32,478 nucleotides of DNA from NCBI GenBank assembly GCA_018971385.1, contig JAGXAY010000016.1, positions 1 through 32,478 on the forward strand. Direction: 5' to 3'. This stretch comes from Acidobacteriota bacterium. Lineage in GTDB: Bacteria > Actinomycetota > Acidimicrobiia > Acidimicrobiales > RAAP-2. The notes beneath the pieces were generated by a model. It saw only the letters and a list, made by a program, of their open reading frames with translations. It ran no database searches and was not told the origin of the DNA. Position numbers and translations under genes: made by a program. Of the stretch, positions 3,203 through 16,902 are shown one piece after another (the first letter of the stretch is position 1; the number at the start of each line of letters is the position of its first letter).

Positions 3203-4253
3203 GCGCGCCCACGTCGTGGGACTCGGTCTCATCGGCTCCTCCGTCGCCCGGGCCCTCCAGCGCGCCGGGTGGACCGTGACCGGAGACGACCTCGACGAGA
3301 GCGTCGTCACGGAGGCCCTCCGTGTCGGCGTCATCACCGACGTCCCGTTCCCGCCCGACGCCGACCTCGGCGTAGTCGCCACCCCCGCCGGCGCGGTGGT
3401 GGAGGTCGCCCGTCGTCTCCTCGACTCCCTGTCGCCTCACGCGGTCGTGACCGACGTCGCGGGGGTCAAGGAGACCATCGCTCACGACATCGCCGACCCC
3501 CGCTTCGTTCCCGGACACCCCATGGCCGGCTCGGAGTTACGGGGCCTCGCCGGGTGTCGCGCCGACATGTTCGAGGGGGCGACGTGGGTTCTCACTCCGA
3601 CGCCGTCCACGGACCCGCGGGCCTACGCGACGGTCCACCACGTGATCCGAGAGATGGGGGCTCACGTCGTCGCACTCGACGCTGGAGACCACGATCGACT
3701 GGTGGCTCTCGCCAGTCACGTACCCCACCTGCTCGCCGGGGCCCTCATGAACGAAGCCGCCGTCGCCGCTCGCGAGGACGCGGTACTCCTCCAGCTGGCC
3801 GCCGGCGGTTTTCGCGACATGACGCGCATCGCGGCGGGTGATCCCCTGATGTGGCCGGACGTCCTCTTGGAGAACCGCCGCGCCGTCACGAGCACCCTCG
3901 ACGACGTGATTGCGCGCCTCGAGTCCCTGCGCCGCGTCGTCGCCGAGCAGGATCGCGTCGGCCTCGAGGGGACGCTCCGGAGTGCCTCCGAGGCTCGCCG
4001 GCGGCTTCCGGGTCGGGCGGTGAGTGCGGAGGAACTCGCCTACCTCCGGGTGGAGATCGCCGACCGACCGGGGGCCCTCGCCACCATCACCACCACGGCC
4101 TCGGACCGCTCGGTCAACATCTTCGACATCGAAATCGCCCACCACGTGGAGGGACGAAGCGGTACCTTGCTGCTCTCCGTCGACGAGACGGTCGCCGACG
4201 GGTTCGTCGAGTCTCTCCGCTCACTCGGATTCCTCGTCGTGAGGGACAAGTAG
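3189..4253 (+). CDS. tyrA: Prephenate dehydrogenase with C-terminal ACT domain
   Basis: TyrA oxidatively decarboxylates prephenate to 4-hydroxyphenylpyruvate, the tyrosine branch. The GTG at 3189 gives 354 residues and starts just before the Rossmann strand with GLGLIG (residues 11-16), the NAD(P)-binding loop. An upstream GTG at 3168 would add seven residues and is less convincing. The HPMAGSE block contains the conserved active-site histidine. The catalytic domain is helical at its C-terminal half. Residues about 286-350 form an ACT domain (RVEIADRPGALATI and following), so feedback control by an aromatic amino acid is likely, though the ligand is inferred. It overlaps aroH by 14 bp and its stop shares one base with the aroA start (TAGTG). 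Confidence 0.95.
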   Translation: MTSSKRAHVVGLGLIGSSVARALQRAGWTVTGDDLDESVVTEALRVGVITDVPFPPDADLGVVATPAGAVVEVARRLLDSLSPHAVVTDVAGVKETIAHDIADPRFVPGHPMAGSELRGLAGCRADMFEGATWVLTPTPSTDPRAYATVHHVIREMGAHVVALDAGDHDRLVALASHVPHLLAGALMNEAAVAAREDAVLLQLAAGGFRDMTRIAAGDPLMWPDVLLENRRAVTSTLDDVIARLESLRRVVAEQDRVGLEGTLRSASEARRRLPGRAVSAEELAYLRVEIADRPGALATITTTASDRSVNIFDIEIAHHVEGRSGTLLLSVDETVADGFVESLRSLGFLVVRDK

Positions 4254-5530
4254 TGCGCGTCGTCACTCCCGCCGCCCGCCTCGAGGGAACCCTGCGCGTC
4301 CCCGGTGACAAGAGTGCGAGCCACCGCGCCCTGATTCTCTCCGCCCTGGCCAACGGTTCGTCCGTCCTCGAGGGACTCTCCGAGGGGGAGGACGTGCGCT
4401 CGAGTGCCGGCATTCTCTCCGCCCTCGGGGCTCGGGTGGAGTGGGGGAGTGACCTCGTCACCGTGGAGGGGCCGTCCGAGGGCCTGCGGGCGACGACGCT
4501 CGACCTCGACTGCGGAAACTCCGGCACCACGATGCGCCTCATGAGCGGAGTTCTCGCGGGAGTGGAGGGTCGTCACCGTCTCGTGGGTGACGCCTCGCTC
4601 TCGGCGCGCCCCATGGACCGGGTCGCTCGCCCGCTCAGCCTCATGGGCGCTTTCGTTGAGGGGGTCGGTGAACGGGTCCACGCCCCCCTCCTCGTGACCG
4701 GTCGAGCGAGTCTCGAGGGAATCGAGTACGAGGTGCCCGTCCCGAGTGCCCAGGTGAAGTCGGCCGTCCTCTTGGCCGGACTTCACGCGTCGGGAGTGAC
4801 CGTCGTGCGAGAGACCGTGCGCACCCGGCCCACCACCGAACGCATGCTGCTCGCGGCCGGGGCTGACGTCGACATTGACGAGTCGGAATCGGGGCGTCGC
4901 GTCGTGGTGCGAGCCTCTCGACCCCACCCGCGCCACTGGAGAGTGCCGGCCGACCCCTCCCAGGCCGCCTTCTTCGTGGTTCTCGGAGTCCTCCACCCGG
5001 ACGCCGTGATTCACCTCGAACCCATGGACGACGCCCCGGAGCGCATCGGATTTCTTCACGTCCTCGAGCGCATGGGGGCTCAGTTGGAGGTCACCACCAG
5101 TGAAGAAGGTGTGCGGGTCACGGCGCGGTCCAGTCACCTACGGGCGACGGAGATATCGTCTCGGGAGATTCCCTCGGTCGACGAAGTCCCCATTCTCGCC
5201 GTGGCCGCGGCCGGCGCCACGGGTCGTAGCTACTTTCGAGAGATGGGGGAACTTCGCTTAAAGGAGTCGGACCGTTTCGCCGGGTCCCTCCGTCTCGCCG
5301 CCGCCCTCGGCTGTGAGGTGGGTTCGGAGGGCGACGACTTCTGGATTGAGGGTCGAGGCGATCCCCAGCGCTTCGCCCCCCTCGCCCTCGACGCCGGTCT
5401 CGATCACCGCATGGTGATGTCGAGTGCCGTCGCGGGAGTGGTGGGCCAGGGAGCACGCATTGAGGGGGAGTCAACGGTCTCCTCGAGCTACCCCCACTTC
5501 TTCGAGGACCTGGACGGACTACGAGCGTGA
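4253..5530 (+). CDS. aroA: 3-phosphoshikimate 1-carboxyvinyltransferase (EPSP synthase)
   Basis: AroA transfers the enolpyruvyl group of phosphoenolpyruvate to shikimate-3-phosphate, the penultimate step to chorismate. From the GTG at 4253 the product is 425 residues, the usual length. The substrate-binding start VPGDKSASHRA gives Lys20, Ser21 and Arg25. The block GNSGTTMR is the PEP/shikimate loop and resembles the Bacillus form more than the Escherichia NAGTAMR form. DEVPILAVAAA and LKESDR are the later family signatures. The frame is open upstream through tyrA, but conservation begins at the chosen GTG, which overlaps the tyrA TAG by one base. Its product chorismate feeds the upstream aroH and the trp genes further along. 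The gene ends in a GTGA overlap with cmk. Confidence 0.96.
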   Translation: MRVVTPAARLEGTLRVPGDKSASHRALILSALANGSSVLEGLSEGEDVRSSAGILSALGARVEWGSDLVTVEGPSEGLRATTLDLDCGNSGTTMRLMSGVLAGVEGRHRLVGDASLSARPMDRVARPLSLMGAFVEGVGERVHAPLLVTGRASLEGIEYEVPVPSAQVKSAVLLAGLHASGVTVVRETVRTRPTTERMLLAAGADVDIDESESGRRVVVRASRPHPRHWRVPADPSQAAFFVVLGVLHPDAVIHLEPMDDAPERIGFLHVLERMGAQLEVTTSEEGVRVTARSSHLRATEISSREIPSVDEVPILAVAAAGATGRSYFREMGELRLKESDRFAGSLRLAAALGCEVGSEGDDFWIEGRGDPQRFAPLALDAGLDHRMVMSSAVAGVVGQGARIEGESTVSSSYPHFFEDLDGLRA

Positions 5531-6153
5531 GTACGGTCATCGCCATCGACGGACCGGCCGGCTCGGGCAAGTCCACTCTCGCCCGGGCGCTCGCCGAACG
5601 GCTCGGCTACGACGTGCTCGACACCGGGGCGATGTACCGTGCCCTTACCGTGGAATGTTTGCGACGGGGCGTCGACGTGACGTCGAACGAGGACGTGAGC
5701 CGTCTCGCCCGGTCCATCGTCGTGACGACGCTGCCCGAGGTCTCCGTCGACGGACACTCGGTGGGACACCTCCTGCGAACCCCCGAGGTCAACGTCGCCG
5801 TGTCGAGCGTGGCCGCCCTCCCCGGAGCGCGGGAGGCGATGGTCGCCGCGCAGCGCGCCCAGGCCGCCGCTAGTACCCGGGGCCTCGTCGCCGAGGGCCG
5901 CGATCTCACCACCGTCGTCTTTCCCGACGCCACCCTCAAGATCTTTCTCACGGCCTCTCTCGACGAGCGGGCGCGCCGTCGAGGGGATGAGTCCCGTGAC
6001 TCCGTCGCTCGCCGCGACCACCTCGACTCCACCCGGGCGGCCTCACCGCTCACCCAAGCCCCCGACGCTCGCGTGCTCGACACCACGGGCCGCAGCGTCG
6101 CCGACCTCGTAGAGGAGGTGGTCGAGTGGCTCGCGAACACCACCTCGCACTGA
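5527..6153 (+). CDS. cmk: Cytidylate kinase
   Basis: Cmk phosphorylates CMP and dCMP to the diphosphates using ATP. The P-loop GPAGSGKST is at residues 9-17, and the nucleotide-monophosphate-binding segment DTGAMYR follows near residue 32. A central EGRDLTTVVFPDA block matches the family's EGRDIGTVVFPDA, and an arginine-rich lid (about ARRRGDESRD) is present. At 208 residues it is somewhat shorter than most bacterial Cmk proteins (about 220-230), with the trimming at the C-terminus. The GTG start lies in a GTGA overlap with the aroA stop. The reading frame of plsC begins 28 bp before the cmk stop. Confidence 0.94.
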   Translation: MSTVIAIDGPAGSGKSTLARALAERLGYDVLDTGAMYRALTVECLRRGVDVTSNEDVSRLARSIVVTTLPEVSVDGHSVGHLLRTPEVNVAVSSVAALPGAREAMVAAQRAQAAASTRGLVAEGRDLTTVVFPDATLKIFLTASLDERARRRGDESRDSVARRDHLDSTRAASPLTQAPDARVLDTTGRSVADLVEEVVEWLANTTSH

Positions 6154-6797
6154 ACCCCCACAAGACGCTCTTCTACCGGGCCGTGGCGGGTGTCCTCCGG
6201 GTCGTCAGTTATCTCCTCTTTCGACCCCGGGTGAGCGGATCGAGCACGATTCCCGAGGAGGGCGCTCTCCTCATCGCCCCGACCCATCGCTCGAACCTCG
6301 ACTTCGCCTTCAGTCTCTTTCTCTGTCGCCGCAAGATCTTCTTCATGGCCAAGCAGTCCCTCTTCGATGTACCGGTCCTCGGACGCGCTCTCGTCGCTCT
6401 CGGGGCGTTCCCGGTGACGCGGGGGGCGGCGGACCGGGACGCGATGAAGGCCGCCGAAGAGGTGCTGCGCGCCGGTCACGCCCTCCTCATGTTCCCCGAA
6501 GGTACTCGTAGTGAGGGTCCCGACATCTTGCCCCTGCACGACGGGGCGATGTTCATCGCCGCCCGGGCCGGTGCTCGCGTGGTGCCGGTGGGTATTGCGG
6601 GATCGGAGATCGCTCTCGCGCCGGGAGCGAAGATGGTGCGTCCCCACCGGGTCGACATCGTGATTGGCGCCCCCCTCGAGCCGCCGGCCGGAGAGCCCCG
6701 ACCGAGTCGAGCCCTCGTGAGTGCGGCCACGAAAGAACTTCAGAGTTCTCTCAACGAGGTCTTTCACGAAGCGCGTACGAGAAACGCGCGGGCGTAG
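6126..6797 (+). CDS. plsC: 1-acyl-sn-glycerol-3-phosphate acyltransferase (PlsC family)
   Basis: PlsC-family enzymes acylate lysophosphatidic acid at the inner membrane to make phosphatidic acid. The 223-residue protein has the HX4D catalytic motif as HRSNLD (His54, Asp59) and the glycerol-phosphate-binding block FPEGTRSEG (about residues 123-131). It has a hydrophobic N-terminal stretch around residues 17-33 and an arginine-rich start. A third block, VVPVGIAGSE, matches the family. The GTG start overlaps the end of cmk by 28 bp; no later start precedes the conserved region convincingly. Acyl acceptor specificity cannot be told from sequence, so a related acyltransferase role is possible. It is the last gene of the scpA operon. 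Its stop abuts the stop of the convergent glycosyltransferase with no base between. Confidence 0.9.
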   Translation: MAREHHLALNPHKTLFYRAVAGVLRVVSYLLFRPRVSGSSTIPEEGALLIAPTHRSNLDFAFSLFLCRRKIFFMAKQSLFDVPVLGRALVALGAFPVTRGAADRDAMKAAEEVLRAGHALLMFPEGTRSEGPDILPLHDGAMFIAARAGARVVPVGIAGSEIALAPGAKMVRPHRVDIVIGAPLEPPAGEPRPSRALVSAATKELQSSLNEVFHEARTRNARA

Positions 6798-7716: not shown

Positions 7717-8754
7717 TCAGCGGGCCGACGCCGCCAGCACCTGGGCCGCGGTGAACTCCCGATCGGCCGCCACGTCGAAGCCCGGACGCACCTCGCCGAA
7801 GAGGGCGAGGGAGGTGACGGTGGTGAGGGAGCGAAGAATGTCGCGAAGCTCCGGTGGGGGAGGGAAGTACTCGTCCTCCGTCACGAACGAGGAGAGTTCG
7901 ACACCGTGACGGGGGTTGAGGCGCTCGAGCACTTGATCGACGAGGGACTCCGGCGCCGAGGCGCCAGCGGTCACCGCGACCGTTCCGTGGAGGTCGTCCG
8001 GTATTTCGTCCGCCCCGTTCACCCGCATCACCCGGGGGCATCCGGCGGCGCGCGCCACGTTCGTGAGGGCCACCGTGTTGGAGGAGTTCGCCGACCCAAT
8101 CACCACCACCGCGTCGGCCCGCGAGGCGAGCGAGCGGAGCGCGCCCTGTCGGTTGGTGGTCGCGAAGCAGAGATCGGAACGATTCGGCATCCAAATATCG
8201 GGAATCCCGCTCAAGGCGTACTGGCGCAGGTCGGCCCACTCGTCCTCCGACAGGGTCGTCTGGGACAAGAGCGCGTAGGGCCCCGGCCTCGTCGCTGCCC
8301 GGTCGATGTCCTCGCGCGACTGGATGAGGACCACCGAGTCGGGAGCGACGGCCATGGTGCCGACGGCCTCCTCGTGACCCTCGTGGCCCACGTAGAGCAC
8401 GGTGTAGCCCTTGCGAGAGCGCACCTTCAACTCGTGGTGAACCTTCGTGACGAGCGGACAGACGGCGTCCACCACCACGCGATGGTCCCGGCGGGCCTCC
8501 TCCACCAGTTGGGGCGGCGAACCGTGGGCACTCAGCATCAACGGGGCGCCCGCCGGCACGGCGCTCACGTCGTCGACGAAAATAACCCCGAGCGAACGAA
8601 AGTGATCCACCACGAAACGATTGTGAACAATCTCGTGGTAGCAGTAGACCGGTGGCTCGAAGATGCGGGTCATCCAGTCGAGGGCCTTGATGGCCTTCTC
8701 GACCCCGGCGCAAAACCCCCGGGGTGACGCGAGCAACACCCGATCGACGTTCAC
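7717..8754 (-). CDS. ispH: 4-hydroxy-3-methylbut-2-enyl diphosphate reductase
   Basis: IspH is the last enzyme of the non-mevalonate (MEP) isoprenoid pathway, reducing HMBPP to IPP and DMAPP with a [4Fe-4S] cluster. The 345-residue product has the three cluster cysteines at 15 (GFCAGV), 99 (DAVCPLV) and 196 (DLCFATTNRQ). The diphosphate-binding histidines are at 44, 77 and 127, and the catalytic glutamate is Glu129 in GHEGHEEAVG. The SANSSNT block is also intact. It is slightly longer than Escherichia IspH, with a C-terminal extension of roughly 20-30 residues after the family end. The GTG start at 8754 is supported by a TAGGCT box ending six bases upstream, a leaderless arrangement. It is divergent from the DUF512 gene. 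Confidence 0.96.
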   Translation of the reverse strand: MNVDRVLLASPRGFCAGVEKAIKALDWMTRIFEPPVYCYHEIVHNRFVVDHFRSLGVIFVDDVSAVPAGAPLMLSAHGSPPQLVEEARRDHRVVVDAVCPLVTKVHHELKVRSRKGYTVLYVGHEGHEEAVGTMAVAPDSVVLIQSREDIDRAATRPGPYALLSQTTLSEDEWADLRQYALSGIPDIWMPNRSDLCFATTNRQGALRSLASRADAVVVIGSANSSNTVALTNVARAAGCPRVMRVNGADEIPDDLHGTVAVTAGASAPESLVDQVLERLNPRHGVELSSFVTEDEYFPPPPELRDILRSLTTVTSLALFGEVRPGFDVAADREFTAAQVLAASAR

Positions 8755-8828
8755 CTTCCCAGCCTAATTTCCTCGGACCCGACTCCCGCACCGCCCGAGA
8801 GGGGAGTAGTTGCCCGTAGGCTGTACGG
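8755..8828. promoter_or_regulatory. Divergent leaderless promoters for ispH and the DUF512 gene
   Basis: The 74-bp gap holds the same -10 hexamer, TAGGCT, on each strand. On the minus strand it occupies 8761-8766 and ends six bases before the ispH GTG. On the plus strand it occupies 8817-8822 and ends six bases before the DUF512 GTG. No properly spaced Shine-Dalgarno precedes either start. Both starts are therefore likely to be the first base of their mRNA. No clear -35 boxes are visible. Confidence 0.5.
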
Positions 8829-10196
8829 GTGTCCGGCGCCCGTATTTCCTCGATTTCGCCGACTTCGCCCCTCGCCGACCTCGACGTGCGCATCGGCGAC
8901 GAGCTCATCGCCGTCAATGGCCGAGCGCCCACCGACATCATCGAGTACCAACAGCTGGTCGATGACGAGTCGGTCACCCTGCTCCTCCAGCGCGAGGGGC
9001 GGCCGCTTCGCCACAAGGTCACCGTGTCCAAAGTGGCCGGCACTCCACTCGGCCTCACGATCGATTCGGCGGTCTTCGACCGCATCCGGACGTGCGACAA
9101 TCACTGCAGTTTCTGCTTCATCTACCAACTGCCGAAGGGGCTTCGTCGTTCCCTCTACGTGAAGGATGACGATTTTCGCCTCTCCTTTCTCTACGGGAAC
9201 TACACCACCCTCACCCGCTTCACCGAGATGGATCTCGAGCGGGTCGTGACGGAGCGTCTCTCGCCCCTCTACGTCTCCATTCACACGACGAATCCGCAGT
9301 TGCGGGCCGAGATGTTGCGCAATCCGCGGGGTGCCACCTCCCTGCGGTGGCTGCGGGCCCTCCTCGACGCCGGCGTCGCGGTGCACGGACAGGTCGTGAC
9401 CTGTCCCGGCATCAACGACGGCGCGGAACTGGAGCGAACTCTCGAAGACGCCCTGACGCTCTACCCGGAACTCGCCTCCCTCGCGGTCGTTCCCGTCGGG
9501 GTCTCCCGTTTCAACCCCGAGGACTCGATGCGCTCCTTCGAACCTGACGAAGCGCGCGTCGCGCTCGAACTCGTGGAGCACTTTCGGGAGGTGGCCCGCC
9601 AATCCCTGGGCCGTCCCCTCATTGAGGCGTCCGACGAGTTCTACCTCCTCGCCGGAAGACGTCCACCCCCGGCCGAGTACTACGACTCGCTCGACCAGGC
9701 CGAGAACGGGATCGGGCTCGTCGCCAGTTTCGAACAGAGCTTCCGGGGTGACACGGAGATGGACGTGCTCGGCACCGGTTTCTTTCAGTCCGTCGACGGG
9801 GCTCCGGCGTGGGGCTACCGGGCCCCGCGGGCGAGCGAGGGTGTCGCCTCCGGCGAGCGCGTCAAACTGCTCACCGGGGAGTACGCCGCTCCGCTCCTGC
9901 GGGAACTGCTCGACGACGCCCAGTACTCCGACGTCGAGGTCATCGCGGTGACGAATGACTACTTCGGGGGCAACATCAAGGTGGCCGGACTCCTCACCGG
10001 AGCCGACGTCTCCCGGACCGTGAGCGAGGACCCGGAGGCCACCTACCTACTGCCCGACGTGTGCCTCAACGAGGGACGTTTCGTCGACGGCGTGGAGCTC
10101 GCCGAGGTGGGCAGTAACGTCGTAGCGGTGAAAACCACCGGACAGGATCTACGCCGCACGCTCGAACATTGGCGTACGCGCTTGGTGTCCGCGTGA
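8829..10196 (+). CDS. PDZ-like / radical SAM / DUF512 protein
   Basis: A 455-residue protein of the DUF512 family, with no assigned reaction that I know of. Residues about 5-70 form a PDZ-like domain (LADLDVRIGDELIAVNGRAP is the typical carboxylate-loop region). The radical SAM cluster motif CX3CX2C is at Cys89, Cys93 and Cys96 (CDNHCSFCF), and the TIM-barrel part continues to about residue 270. The DUF512 domain covers roughly 285-430 and includes the TGEYAAPLL and NDYFGGNIKVAGLLTG blocks. Cys89-type motifs bind a [4Fe-4S] cluster that cleaves S-adenosylmethionine. It ends in a GTGA overlap with der, so the two are probably co-translated, which hints at a role near ribosome assembly or translation. 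The GTG start is supported by TAGGCT six bases upstream. Confidence 0.9.
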   Translation: MSGARISSISPTSPLADLDVRIGDELIAVNGRAPTDIIEYQQLVDDESVTLLLQREGRPLRHKVTVSKVAGTPLGLTIDSAVFDRIRTCDNHCSFCFIYQLPKGLRRSLYVKDDDFRLSFLYGNYTTLTRFTEMDLERVVTERLSPLYVSIHTTNPQLRAEMLRNPRGATSLRWLRALLDAGVAVHGQVVTCPGINDGAELERTLEDALTLYPELASLAVVPVGVSRFNPEDSMRSFEPDEARVALELVEHFREVARQSLGRPLIEASDEFYLLAGRRPPPAEYYDSLDQAENGIGLVASFEQSFRGDTEMDVLGTGFFQSVDGAPAWGYRAPRASEGVASGERVKLLTGEYAAPLLRELLDDAQYSDVEVIAVTNDYFGGNIKVAGLLTGADVSRTVSEDPEATYLLPDVCLNEGRFVDGVELAEVGSNVVAVKTTGQDLRRTLEHWRTRLVSA

Positions 10197-11476
10197 GTCG
10201 GGTCGTCGTCGTCGGTCGGCCGAACGTCGGCAAGAGCTCCCTCGTCAACCGCCTGGCGGCCAAGCGGCTCACCGTCGTCGAGGAACACCGCGGGGTCACC
10301 CGTGACCGCAAAGTGGTCCCGGTGGAGTGGAACGGCGCTCGTTTCGACGTGGTCGACACTGGTGGTTGGCTCGAAGCGGGCGACGACCTCGAACGAAAGG
10401 TGTCGCGTCAGGCGGACGCCGCCCTCGACGAGGCCGACCTCGTTCTCTTCGTCGTGGACGTCACGACGGGCGTGACCGACGAGGACCGCCAGGCCGCGCG
10501 GTGGGTCCTCAAGTCTCGTCGACCCCACCTCCTCGTTGTCAACAAGGTGGACGACGCCCTTCACGAGGCCGCGGTCTGGGAGTTTCTCTCCCTCGGCTGC
10601 GGCGATCCCCTGGCGGTCAGTGCCCAACACGGACGGGGGGCGGGAGATCTTCTCGACACCATCGTCGATCACCTGGACGACCCCACCTCCGTCGCTGACG
10701 AGACTCCCGACGACGACGCCCTCCGCGTGGCTCTCGTGGGTCGACCGAACGTCGGCAAGTCCACGCTCTTCAACCGTCTCATTGGCGAGGAGCGATCCGT
10801 CGTTCACGACATGCCGGGCACGACCCGTGACGCCATCGACACCGTCATCGATACTCCGGACGGCCGGATTCGCTTCATCGACACCGCCGGGATGCGTCGG
10901 CGGGCCAAGACCGAGGCCGGTCTCGAAACCTACAGCGTCGTGCGTTCCCTCGAGGCCCTCGACCGGGCCGATATCGCCCTCCTCGTGATTGACGCCACCC
11001 AGGGCGCGAGCGCCCAGGATCAACGCCTCGCGGAGAGAATCTCGGCGGCGGGCTGTCCGGCGCTCGTGATTCTCAACAAGTGGGAACTCATCGACACCGA
11101 GGATCGCGAAAAGGTCCTGTCGACGGTCTCGGACAAGTTGGCCTTCCTCGGTGACGCTCCGGTGCTGAAGACCTCGGCCACGAGTGGACGGGGAGTGCAC
11201 CGCATCCTGCCCGCCCTATCGCAGGCGAAGGAGGACTACACCAAGCGAGTCTCCACCGGCGCCCTCAACCGGGCGATTCGGGACCTCCAGATTCACCAGC
11301 CGGCCCCGACGGGCAAAATTCGCTACGCCGTTCAGGGCGCCACCGAGCCCCCCACCTTCACCCTCTTCATCGCGGGGCGCCTGCCCCAGACGTACTTGCG
11401 CTACGTGGAACGATCCCTGCGTGAACGTTTCGACCTCGGCACGACCCCGCTCAAGATTCGCGTCCGCACCGAGTAA
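10193..11476 (+). CDS. der: Ribosome biogenesis GTPase Der (EngA)
   Basis: Der is an essential GTPase with two tandem G domains that matures the 50S subunit. The chosen GTG at 10193 lies in a GTGA overlap with the upstream stop and gives 427 residues beginning MSRVVVVGRPNVGKSS. The first G domain has the P-loop at residues 8-16, DTGGW and NKVD. The second starts near residue 182 with VGRPNVGKST, then DTAGM and NKWE. A KH-like domain fills about residues 345-427. All guanine-nucleotide motifs are intact. A TTG at 10169 would add eight residues with no family support. The stop TAA shares its last base with the ATG of the next gene. Confidence 0.96.
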   Translation: MSRVVVVGRPNVGKSSLVNRLAAKRLTVVEEHRGVTRDRKVVPVEWNGARFDVVDTGGWLEAGDDLERKVSRQADAALDEADLVLFVVDVTTGVTDEDRQAARWVLKSRRPHLLVVNKVDDALHEAAVWEFLSLGCGDPLAVSAQHGRGAGDLLDTIVDHLDDPTSVADETPDDDALRVALVGRPNVGKSTLFNRLIGEERSVVHDMPGTTRDAIDTVIDTPDGRIRFIDTAGMRRRAKTEAGLETYSVVRSLEALDRADIALLVIDATQGASAQDQRLAERISAAGCPALVILNKWELIDTEDREKVLSTVSDKLAFLGDAPVLKTSATSGRGVHRILPALSQAKEDYTKRVSTGALNRAIRDLQIHQPAPTGKIRYAVQGATEPPTFTLFIAGRLPQTYLRYVERSLRERFDLGTTPLKIRVRTE

Positions 11477-13495: not shown

Positions 13496-13572
13496 CGGCG
13501 CGCCTTTCGGATACGGGGTTGCCCCAATGTAGTCAAACCAAAACGACTCTCCGGCCCGTTACGCTCGAGGGG
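13496..13572. promoter_or_regulatory. Divergent promoter region between trpD and trpC
   Basis: On the plus strand TACGCT (13560-13565) ends seven bases before the trpC GTG, the leaderless TANNNT pattern. On the minus strand TTGACT (13531-13536) and TATCCG (13508-13513) are separated by 17 bp and could form the trpD promoter, placing transcription start within about 10 bases of the GTG. I looked for a Trp-rich leader peptide, an attenuator hairpin pair and a T-box, and the gap is too short and lacks them. A small GGGG-TT-GCCCC-type symmetry at 13515-13525 is too short to interpret. Confidence 0.4.
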
Positions 13573-14352
13573 GTGACCACGTACCTCGACGCGATTGGCG
13601 AATTCCACCGAGCGCGCGCCCAGGCTGATCCTCGTTCCTGGACCTCCCGAGTCGACGGTCTCTGGTACACCGGTCCGTCACTCTCGACGCACCTGAGCGA
13701 GGGTCCGAACGTGGCCGTGATTTCGGAGGTGAAGCGTCGATCACCCTCGAAGGGGTGGCTCGCCGAGGATCTGGACGCGGCCGCCACCGCTCGGCTCTAC
13801 GCCGACGGGGGAGCGACGGCGATCTCGGTGCTGACCGACCTACCCCACTTCGGGGGCACTCTCGACGACCTGGCGGCCGTGCGACGAGCGGTGGATCTCC
13901 CGGTGCTGCGTAAGGACTTCACGGTGTGTGAAAACGACGTCCTCGACGCCCTCGAATGGGGAGCGTCGGCCGTTCTCTTGATCGTGGCCCTCCTCAGTGA
14001 CGACGAACTCGCCCGTCTCCACGCCCTCGCTCGAACCGTCAATCTCGATGCGCTCGTCGAAGTGCACGACGAAGCCGAGGCCTCGCGCGCCCTCCGGGCG
14101 GGAGCCACCCTCATCGGCGTGAACCAACGCGACCTTCACACCTTCGCCGTGGACTCACTGCGCGCCGCCCGGGTCGCTCAGTCTCTTCCCCACGACATCG
14201 TCAAGGTCGCCGAGAGTGGCCTGCGCAGCGCCGACGACGTGCGCGTAGCCGGCGAGGCCGGATTCCACGCGGTGCTCGTCGGCGAGAGTTTCGTCACCGA
14301 TGCGTCACCGGGGGAGAGGGTTCGTGACTTCGCGGGAGTAGCACGACCGTGA
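13573..14352 (+). CDS. trpC: Indole-3-glycerol phosphate synthase
   Basis: TrpC closes the ring of carboxyphenylamino-deoxyribulose phosphate to indole-3-glycerol phosphate. The GTG at 13573 gives 259 residues, matching the single-domain enzyme. The family signature ISEVKRRSPSKG holds the first catalytic lysine, LRKDF the second, and the phosphate-binding loops VNQRDL, AESGLRSADD and LVGESFV close the TIM barrel. The in-frame TTG at 13519 would add 18 residues that look non-conserved. The TACGCT box seven bases before the GTG supports the shorter form. The gene is followed by trpF in a GTGA overlap, and no PRAI domain is fused to it. Confidence 0.95.
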   Translation: MTTYLDAIGEFHRARAQADPRSWTSRVDGLWYTGPSLSTHLSEGPNVAVISEVKRRSPSKGWLAEDLDAAATARLYADGGATAISVLTDLPHFGGTLDDLAAVRRAVDLPVLRKDFTVCENDVLDALEWGASAVLLIVALLSDDELARLHALARTVNLDALVEVHDEAEASRALRAGATLIGVNQRDLHTFAVDSLRAARVAQSLPHDIVKVAESGLRSADDVRVAGEAGFHAVLVGESFVTDASPGERVRDFAGVARP

Positions 14353-14966
14353 AGGCGTCCCCGACTCTCATCAAGGTGTGCGGGCTGACCCGTCTCGACG
14401 ACGGCGCCATGTGCCTCGAGGCGGGGGTCGACTACCTCGGACTCATCTTCGCCTCGTCGCCGCGGCGCGCCCCCGAGGGCCTCGGTCGACAGTTCGCTCA
14501 GTTAGGGGCGTCGACCGTCGGAGTCTTTCGCGGTCGTAGCGACGACGACATCGTGCGCATCGTGGAGGACGAAGAGATTGGGATCGTGCAGCTGCACGAT
14601 CCGGCGTCTCCCGCTCTTCGAGATCATCTCGAACGAGGGGGCGTCGAGGTGTGGCGGGCGGTTCACGCCGCCGACTGGCGCACCGCCGATCTCCAGGGGG
14701 CCCGGCGGCTGCTGCTCGACGGTCCCGCGCCCGGGTCAGGACAGCTCGCGGACTGGTCGGGATTCGTACCCGACGAGGTCGACCGACCCTTTCTGATTGC
14801 CGGGGGACTCACCCCCGATAACGTCGCCGCCATGATCGACCTCCTCCACCCCCACGGCGTCGACGTGGCGTCGGGGGTGGAGAGTTCGCCGGGAATCAAG
14901 AGCCCCGAACTGGTCGCTCGTTTCGTCACCCAGGTACGACACCACCCCGAGGAGGGAATCGAATGA
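14349..14966 (+). CDS. trpF: Phosphoribosylanthranilate isomerase
   Basis: TrpF performs the Amadori rearrangement of phosphoribosylanthranilate between the TrpD and TrpC steps. The 205-residue product begins with IKVCGLTR, whose cysteine is the catalytic base. The block [11 protein letters not shown], the [11 protein letters not shown] segment with the catalytic aspartate, and the final [10 protein letters not shown] and [14 protein letters not shown] phosphate-binding loops are all typical. The typical family motif has GGTG after the aspartate; here it is PAPGSG, a mild variation. The GTG start overlaps the trpC stop by four bases, and the stop overlaps the trpB ATG by four, so translation is probably coupled along the operon. 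Confidence 0.94.
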
Positions 14967-16147
14967 CCCAGACCGCCCCCGTGATGAGGGACCCGGGAGA
15001 GGATGGTCGCTTCGGCGACTTTGGGGGACGCTTCGTTCCCGAAGCCCTCATTCCCGCGTGCGAGGAGCTCCACGACGCGTTTCGCGACGCCTGGACTGAC
15101 GACGCGTTTCGTGAGGAGTTCCACCACGTTCTGCGCGAGTTTGGCGGTCGCCCCACTCCTATCACGTACCTCGCGCGGCTCTCGGAGTCGCTGGGTGTGA
15201 GGGTCTACGCCAAGCGCGAAGACCTCGCCCACACCGGAAGTCACAAGATCAATAACGTCGTCGGCCAGACCCTCCTCACCCGACGCATGGGCAAGACCCG
15301 CGTCATCGCCGAAACCGGCGCGGGCCAGCACGGTGTCGCCACGGCGACGGCGGCGGCCCGACTCGGTCTGGACTGCACGGTCTACATGGGTGAACTCGAC
15401 ACCCAGCGACAGGCCCTCAACGTGTTTCGCATGGAACTCCTGGGGGCGAAGGTGGTGCCGGTGACCTCCGGTAGTCGAACCCTCAAGGACGCCGTCAATG
15501 AGGCGATGCGCGAGTGGGTGACCTGCGTCGACGACACCCACTACTGCCTCGGCTCCGTCATGGGCCCCCACCCCTTCCCGTGGATGGTGCGGGAGTTTCA
15601 GTCCATCATCGGGCACGAGGCGTCGCGCCAGATGGCGGAGTTGGGGGTCGGCACCCCCGACGTGGTCGTCGCCTGCGTCGGAGGCGGGTCGAACGCGGCT
15701 GGCATCTTCGCCGGGTTCGCCGACTCGACGGCTGAACTCGTCGGGGTGGAGGCCGCCGGTGGTGCCGCCATCTCCGGAGGACAACCCGGAGTGCTCCACG
15801 GTATGAAGTCGATGCTCCTTCAGTCCGAATCCGGACAGATCGAGGAGGCGGAGTCCATCTCGGCCGGCCTCGACTACCCGGGTATCGGTCCCGAGCACGC
15901 CCACCTCGCCGCCATCGGTCGGGCGCGCTACGTGGGAATGGCCGACGAACCCGTGATCGAGGCGTTGCAGTTGCTCAGTAGCTCGGAGGGGATCATCCCG
16001 GCCCTCGAATCCGCGCACGCCGTCGCCTGGATTGCCCGAGAAGCCGGACGAGAGATTCCTTCGGGATCGACGGTGCTCCTGAATCTCTCGGGTCGAGGAG
16101 ACAAGGACGTCGCCCAGGTGCGCGACATCTTGAAGGGCCGTTCGTGA
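14963..16147 (+). CDS. trpB: Tryptophan synthase beta chain
   Basis: TrpB uses pyridoxal phosphate to join indole and serine. The 394-residue protein starts ahead of [13 protein letters not shown], the family opening. Lys95 in HTGSHKINN is the PLP Schiff-base lysine, ETGAGQHG holds the catalytic glutamate, and GGGSNAAG binds the cofactor phosphate. [10 protein letters not shown] closes the protein as usual. This is the ordinary TrpB1 type that pairs with TrpA, which is encoded next with a four-base GTGA overlap. All key residues are present. Confidence 0.97.
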
Positions 16148-16902
16148 ACTCGCTCGAACGCCACCTCCGCGAGCGCCGCGACGCCGGCCAGTCGTCCTTC
16201 GTGCCCTACCTGATGGCGGGCATGGTCCCCGACTGGCGCGACCACCTGGAGGCCCTCGTCGCCGCGGGCGCGGCGGCCGTTGAAGTGGGGGTGCCCTTCT
16301 CCGACCCCATCTTGGACGGTGTGGTTATTCAACGAGCGGCCCTCGCGTCACTCGAGGCCGGAACGACTCCGGAGGGAGTCTTCGCCGAACTCGCCCGACG
16401 TCCCCTCGGAGTTCCCGTCATCGTCATGACCTACTTCAATATCTTCCACCACCTGGGCATGGAGCGAAGCGCCTCTCTCCTCCACGACGCCGGGGTGTCG
16501 GGAGTGATCATTCCCGACCTCACCCTCGAAGAGGCGGGCCCGTGGCGCGAGGCCGTTACTGGTCGGGACATCGACACGGTCCTCCTGGTCGCTCCCTCCT
16601 CGCCGGAGGCTCGGGTCGAAAAGATTGCTCGGGCCGCGCAAGGATTCGTCTACGCGGCGTCTCGCATGGCCGTGACGGGACAGGCCGAGGACACCGGGGA
16701 CGCCGGCGCCGTCGTCGACCGGGTCCGGCGCCACAGTGACCTACCGGTCTTCGTCGGTATCGGTATCTCTACCCCCGAACAAGCTCGTCACGCCTACTCC
16801 ATAGCCGACGGCGCCATCGTGGGGTCGGCCCTCGTTGATCGGGTGCTGCGGGGAATGAGTGCTCTCGAGACCGAAGCCTTCGCCCGGGACTTTGTGCTCT
16901 AG
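16144..16902 (+). CDS. trpA: Tryptophan synthase alpha chain
   Basis: TrpA cleaves indole-3-glycerol phosphate and passes indole through the tunnel to TrpB. The 252-residue TIM barrel has the two catalytic acids at Glu47 and Asp58 in [14 protein letters not shown]. The loop [11 protein letters not shown] replaces the more usual VYLLSRAGVTG form. The N-terminal substrate segment reads [10 protein letters not shown] in place of the common YLTAGFPD, a modest divergence at the active-site entrance. The GTG overlaps the trpB stop. This is the last gene of the trp operon; no terminator hairpin follows clearly in the next 60 bases. Confidence 0.95.

Follow-up and report, generated by a model that had tools for sequence, protein, structure and literature searches.

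What does the 455-residue radical SAM protein encoded immediately upstream of der do, and does the attachment of its gene to that of a ribosome-assembly GTPase tell us anything about its substrate? The window considered here is the whole stretch of 32,478 nucleotides of an acidimicrobial contig, and the gene in question occupies positions 8829–10196 of its forward strand. The open reading frame has a GTG start, with an in-frame stop upstream at 8817 and no start codon between 8817 and 8829. The initial annotation had described the product as a combination of PDZ, radical SAM and DUF512 domains, and all three are recovered above their Pfam gathering scores: PDZ_6 at residues 6–55 (8844–8993; E 6.7e-10), Radical_SAM_2 at residues 71–218 (9039–9482; E 4.7e-60) and DUF512 (PF04459) at the C-terminus, residues 221–431 (9489–10121; E 9.9e-39). 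Downstream of the PDZ_6 match is a putative carboxylate-binding loop, L74-G75-L76 (aligned with LGI72-74 of the homologue csDUF512, discussed below), in which G75 is invariant among the 78 sequences aligned. The protein gave no match at E 0.001 to PF02310, the N-terminal B12-binding Rossmann domain, its N-terminus being given over to PDZ. PF04459 has a single match in the 2.1-Mb genome, and the highest identities to the window protein among 77 aligned relatives are those of L061 (Acidimicrobiaceae, 67%) and L111 (Actinomycetes, 66%), which makes an Acidimicrobiia source probable.

DUF512 had been taken, when the sequence was first read, for a domain with no known reaction. This is no longer tenable: it was established in 2024 as a cobalamin-binding domain, and the available part of that account describes four DUF512 homologues that were able to bind cobalamin, converted it to methylcobalamin with SAM and released a little 5'-deoxyadenosine (Wang et al., PMC11659888). 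The authors regard these proteins as most likely to be radical methylases, for which the part available identifies no substrate (PMC11659888), and a 2025 review, in the portion to hand, puts them and Mmp10 into class 2 of the cobalamin radical SAM enzymes and raises the question of which reactions they carry out (PMC13331322). There is no mention of EngA or of a GTPase in the text of PMC11659888, no methylated substrate for any DUF512 protein was found in the openly licensed PMC literature, and none of the literature matches listed links DUF512 with der or plsY (PMC7775120 was a false lead, since it concerns DUF5129). Thus, the idea of an undescribed activity survives in part: the radical SAM enzyme still has no known substrate, as was first proposed, but the cofactor chemistry of DUF512 has been described (PMC11659888, available part).

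In a phmmer search of the PDB, the closest relative was csDUF512 of Clostridium sporogenes (9CG1; E 1.4e-80 over residues 13–445), followed by pfDUF512 of Pyrococcus furiosus (9CG2) and Mmp10. The window protein and csDUF512 (PMC11659888) have in common the order PDZ–radical SAM–DUF512, a CX3CX2C motif with Phe after the third Cys, a DDD motif, a Thr for the cobalamin tail, an axial Leu and an LGx loop, and can be aligned over most of their length, yet their identity is only 32–33%. An AlphaFold model of the window protein (pLDDT 92, pTM 0.90) differs from csDUF512 in a low-confidence stretch at about residues 311–340; in Foldseek it retrieved 9CG1 at E 1.1e-40, 9CG2 at 8.9e-17 and Mmp10 at 8.4e-11, and VIA comparison with 9CG1 gave a Z of 34.9 over 411 residues (rmsd 4.1), against 26.7 for 9CG2, 18.4 for Mmp10 and 13.9 downwards for the remaining radical SAM enzymes. 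Like the window protein, pfDUF512 has a radical SAM domain and a C-terminal cobalamin domain, but it has no PDZ domain, and its active site is closed by a loop, L1. Mmp10 (TIGR03278, PDB 7QBS), which methylates an arginine of a protein (PMC11659888, available part), also has a C-terminal cobalamin domain and belongs with the DUF512 proteins in class 2 (PMC13331322, portion to hand), but it too is without PDZ, and the window protein scores only 41.7 bits against a TIGR03278 cut-off of 350. A cyanobacterial NCBIfam model of the hypothetical-equivalog kind, TIGR03279 (radical SAM protein), gives 315.9 bits, with its best stretch at residues 5–307, and this falls below the curated cut-off of 574.7. 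TsrM and TokK resemble the DUF512 homologues in using SAM-derived methylcobalamin chemistry, but have an N-terminal Cbl-binding domain of which none is detectable in the window protein. Judged by its domain order, CX3CX2C and DDD motifs, Phe97, Leu388 and Thr349, and by the 9CG1 fold of the predicted model, the window gene is an added member of the recently described PDZ–radical SAM–DUF512 family, with its predicted cofactor residues intact.

The residues of csDUF512 that surround the cofactors can be mapped individually. C87, C91 and C94 correspond to Cys89, Cys93 and Cys96 of the [4Fe-4S] motif (9093–9116), whose intactness had been noted from the start, and F95 to the adjoining Phe97; D111-113 correspond to Asp113-115 (9165–9173), Asp114 being the equivalent of D112, a ligand of the unique iron in csDUF512; L366, at the lower axial face of cobalt in csDUF512, corresponds to Leu388 (9990–9992); and T323, which there holds the dimethylbenzimidazole tail, corresponds to Thr349 (9873–9875), an assignment that rests on a TG motif, phmmer misaligning that stretch. 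Among 242 loci, which include at least 11 repeat records of one gene, Cys89, Cys93, Cys96, Phe97, Asp113 and Asp115 are conserved in 241, the sole gap being a gene cut at a contig end, and Leu388 is conserved in 240. Position 114 carries Asp in 215 loci and Glu in 26, with a gap in one. Only 178 have Thr at position 349, and contact with the tail is therefore not a constant feature of the family.

The variants are unevenly distributed. The 26 DED sequences comprise all nine from Desulfobacterota, 10 of the 13 from Acidobacteriota and seven of the 80 named-contig loci (L055, L067, L069, L079, L083, L108 and L109), with der adjoining DUF512 in none of the six of these last that are testable. Thr349 is replaced by Val in 34 of 50 loci of the cyanobacterial phylum (L159–L208, including five repeat records) and by Cys in 17 of 30 Chloroflexota loci. 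The change to Val in cyanobacteria might be a sign of pseudocobalamin, but the pattern is not a clean one, Thr being kept in 9 of 10 presumably picocyanobacterial loci from small genomes (about 1.8–2.3 Mb). Two loci of one actinobacterial family (L025 and L031) encode DUF512 proteins in which there is no room for a PDZ domain: the cluster cysteines lie 15–16 residues past the open start, at which an ispH match ends, and der still follows.

This analysis observed domains, predicted fold, cofactor residues, conservation and gene context; by analogy with the homologues, the window protein would share their cobalamin/SAM chemistry, and C-methylation would be its probable reaction. We think it very probable that it is a class 2 cobalamin-dependent radical SAM methylase of the csDUF512 type, a description that gives an enzyme class and a mechanism and no substrate. 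How might such an enzyme work? A first SAM would methylate cob(I)alamin bound base-off by the DUF512 domain, with Thr349 at the tail and Leu388 beneath the cobalt, and a second would be reductively cleaved at the [4Fe-4S] cluster on Cys89, Cys93 and Cys96; Asp114 and Phe97 may move SAM from one of its two poses to the other (a proposal carried over from csDUF512). The 5'-deoxyadenosyl radical would then abstract hydrogen from an unactivated carbon of the substrate, and the resulting carbon radical would accept the methyl group from methylcobalamin. The PDZ domain would complete the shortened barrel, as it does in csDUF512, and may also dock the C-terminus of a protein. Cobalamin radical SAM enzymes that catalyse other reactions do exist (PMC11659888 and PMC13331322, parts available), so that cobalamin might instead serve here in a ring contraction, a coupling or the like; this seems improbable, as the Leu under cobalt and the sandwich of cluster, aromatic residue and cobalamin are as in radical methylases, and the homologues methylate cobalamin (PMC11659888, available part). 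The host genome appears to use cobalamin (it has two B12-binding domain matches above cut-off and two cobalamin riboswitches), but this supports the enzyme class only weakly, because 196 of the 198 Actinomycetota genomes have PF02310 B12-binding domains. For the same reason, cobalamin use offered no contrast as a phylogenetic marker.

We turn now to the genetic context. The stop codon of the DUF512 gene (TGA, 10194–10196) overlaps the likely start of der (GTG, 10193–10195) in the sequence GTGA (10193–10196), as had been pointed out in the initial annotation, and the gene that follows on the same strand (10193–11476) is identified as EngA/Der at 484 bits (cut-off 307). An alternative der start (TTG at 10169) is mechanically possible. 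The overlap suggests that the two genes are translationally coupled in the window; it names no substrate. Upstream, and divergent, is ispH (7717–8754, reverse strand), a conserved neighbour 74 nucleotides from the DUF512 start, and beyond it are three further members of a conserved cluster, all on the forward strand: aroA (matching from about 4286 within an ORF at 3851–5530), cmk (5527–6153) and a gene for a plsC-type acyltransferase (6126–6797). A forward ORF at 7906–8727 had no Pfam match. Ordinary neighbours lie further out: scpB and a pseudouridine synthase gene at 1506–2837, and trpC, trpF, a gene for a trpB-like PALP enzyme and trpA at 13519–16902.

How general is the association with der? 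Throughout, neighbours were counted at the best-scoring loci of each draw, which are not a random sample; draw loci reach no further than about 0.8 kb before the DUF512 gene and 1.4 kb after it, and each draw takes its phylum name from its central locus. A conserved proximity does hold in Actinomycetota, where der is downstream of DUF512 in 29 of 30 loci (the best 30 of 73 genomes with a match; the exception is L030), and in the Bacillota draw, where it is so in 30 of 30 (the best 30 of 96). The same arrangement occurs in 62 of the 80 named-contig loci, or 62 of 78 testable ones (L099 and L109, in which the sequence ends too soon past the gene, being excluded). Elsewhere, der adjoins DUF512 in only 2 of 30 Chloroflexota loci and in none of 13 from Acidobacteriota, nine from Desulfobacterota (a tenth, weak match, L291, having been dropped) and 30 from cyanobacteria, nor was there any Der match in 20 longer regions (about 12.5–13 kb) from the cyanobacterial phylum. 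Thus, the link is real in two phyla, Actinomycetota and Bacillota, and is not universal; and the control genomes of Escherichia coli and Bacillus subtilis have Der with no match to PF04459.

In many loci of Actinomycetota and Bacillota, all or part of the series aroA-cmk-plsC-ispH-(S1)-DUF512-der-plsY-gpsA can be recognized, ispH being inverted in many Acidimicrobiia, as it is in the window. This cluster does not need DUF512, because cmk, plsC or ispH lies within 1.5 kb of der in 27 of 28 actinobacterial loci that have no DUF512 (30 such genomes were searched, of which 28 gave a der match at E 1e-100). The simplest reading is of an old housekeeping cluster, with DUF512 as an optional constituent. 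Among 20 regions of the cyanobacterial phylum, aroA is near DUF512 in four, in two of which (L199 and L205) the adjoining gene encodes a protein of one S1-domain cluster. The same 20 regions include ten members of a cluster of 174-residue proteins, taken here to be those of L189–L196, L207 and L208, one of which matches PadR; the gene adjoins or overlaps the DUF512 start in L189, L192 and L193.

What, then, might be methylated? The initial annotation had looked to the der overlap for a ribosomal, translational or peptide target. C-methylation of a ribosomal protein, a translation factor or an RNA, with the der link reflecting shared function, is to our minds possible at rather less than even odds: der follows DUF512 with the regularity just described in Actinomycetota, Bacillota and the testable named-contig loci, and genes for S1, MiaA and YceD occur near DUF512 in 11, five and four, respectively, of 80 loci, although these three were picked as queries after the loci had been inspected. 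A relative with rearranged domains, described below, is encoded downstream of the tRNA-modification gene tsaD, and rimI-like and tsaE genes are frequent companions. Set against this are the near or complete absence of the der link from Chloroflexota, Acidobacteriota, Desulfobacterota and cyanobacteria, and the persistence of the cluster around der in loci devoid of DUF512. The link being confined to some phyla, and the cluster persisting in this way, a ribosomal target is left open, and the reading of der coupling as a pointer towards it finds no support. No residue of Der clearly tracks with DUF512 either, and for Der itself to be the substrate seems very improbable. Adjacency and the GTGA overlap are all that speak for it; a comparison of 82 Der sequences (from the 111 DUF512 loci L001–L111) with 18 from the 28 loci without DUF512, sequences being left out where der was absent or incomplete or failed a P-loop filter, revealed no diagnostic column: none was invariant on one side and missing from the other, and the two groups differed most at position 392 (Phe in 96% with DUF512 versus 33% without). 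Moreover, most Der C-termini are charged or polar residues or Gly, and not hydrophobic ends of the PDZ type: the last residue of the 82 is E or R in 14 each, S, G or D in eight each, K in seven, T in six, N or Q in four each, A in three, H in two, and Y, L, M or V in one each.

The other genes of the cluster could equally be searched for hints. Methylation of a lipid, isoprenoid or envelope component, or of a membrane protein, would fit the recurrence of plsC, ispH, plsY and gpsA beside DUF512 in Actinomycetota and Bacillota, the presence of uppP upstream of it in 20 of 30 cyanobacterial loci, of pgsA nearby in 2 of 13 loci from Acidobacteriota and 2 of 9 from Desulfobacterota, and of plsC or ispH in 5 of 30 from Chloroflexota. 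Yet the query genes were chosen after such loci had been inspected, and L264, L274 and L283, with L186, are repeats of those loci; a link within a phylum may be a single inherited event; 24 of 30 Chloroflexota and 11 of 13 Acidobacteriota loci have no query gene beside DUF512; and PDZ domains usually bind peptides. We consider a membrane-related substrate unlikely. In Desulfobacterota, where der is absent from the loci, miaA or pgsA is near DUF512 in four of nine. Because the queries were post hoc, repeat loci were counted and relatives share a history, these non-der neighbours constitute a lead and not a test. The largest share of our expectation, at a little under one-half, goes to some other kind of substrate altogether.

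The relative with rearranged domains is of interest in its own right. A second, weaker PF04459 match is present in 40 of 119 genomes of the Bacillota draw (leaving out G339, in which one gene is split over contigs) and 4 of 198 of Actinomycetota, and all 24 of these second genes that were examined (20 from Bacillota and four from Actinomycetota) are of one type, with the same parts in the order radical SAM, PDZ, DUF512. Examples are L292 (2417–3742, reverse strand), L294 (1267–2724, forward) and L295 (662–2893, forward), the order in L293 and L296–L315 having been assigned by alignment; each of the 24 scanned has matches to the three Pfam domains at E 0.01, some of which fall short of the gathering score. 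Seventeen of the 24 loci (17 of 20 in Bacillota and none of four in Actinomycetota) have tsaD upstream of the rearranged gene and in the same orientation, and the loci so linked include three with lgt in between, 13 with a rimI-like gene and 11 with tsaE. No description of this domain order was found in the available part of PMC11659888, and a literature search joining radical SAM, PDZ domain and TsaD found nothing. One candidate product was considered. The tRNA modification hn6A is t6A with one extra carbon, and the origin of its hydroxynorvaline is given as not known in the available parts of two sources (PMC10702137; PMC7694415); Methanosarcina acetivorans and Methanocaldococcus jannaschii make hn6A, and bacterial t6A enzymes accept supplied hydroxynorvaline (PMC10702137, available part). 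The chemistry would fit, but the control genomes of these two hn6A makers have no PF04459 match, and a role for the rearranged family in hn6A can be regarded as a weak lead only. It is conceivable, if rather doubtful, that the two families (one by der and S1, the other by tsaD) place undescribed C-methyl marks on the translation apparatus.

PF04459 is widespread, with matches in 73 of 198 genomes of Actinomycetota, 96 of 119 of Bacillota, 34 of 81 of Chloroflexota, 13 of 60 of Acidobacteriota, 10 of 79 of Desulfobacterota (one of them weak) and 75 of 79 of the cyanobacterial draw, including genomes near 1.8 Mb. In Clostridium difficile, Tn-seq classed CDR20291_2521, which encodes a PDZ, radical SAM and DUF512 protein, as essential, and no discussion of polarity for this gene was found in the available part of that report (PMC12548448). 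With der next after DUF512 in all 30 of the Bacillota loci, a polar effect on der is a credible alternative explanation of that essentiality, inferred from those loci and not from the C. difficile locus itself. If the enzymes do mark the translation apparatus, this would explain their retention in many bacteria, including cyanobacteria with genomes near 1.8 Mb. Identification of the substrate would name a new cobalamin-dependent reaction and account for one of the uses of vitamin B12, and would tell us whether the cluster around der is functional or merely inherited.
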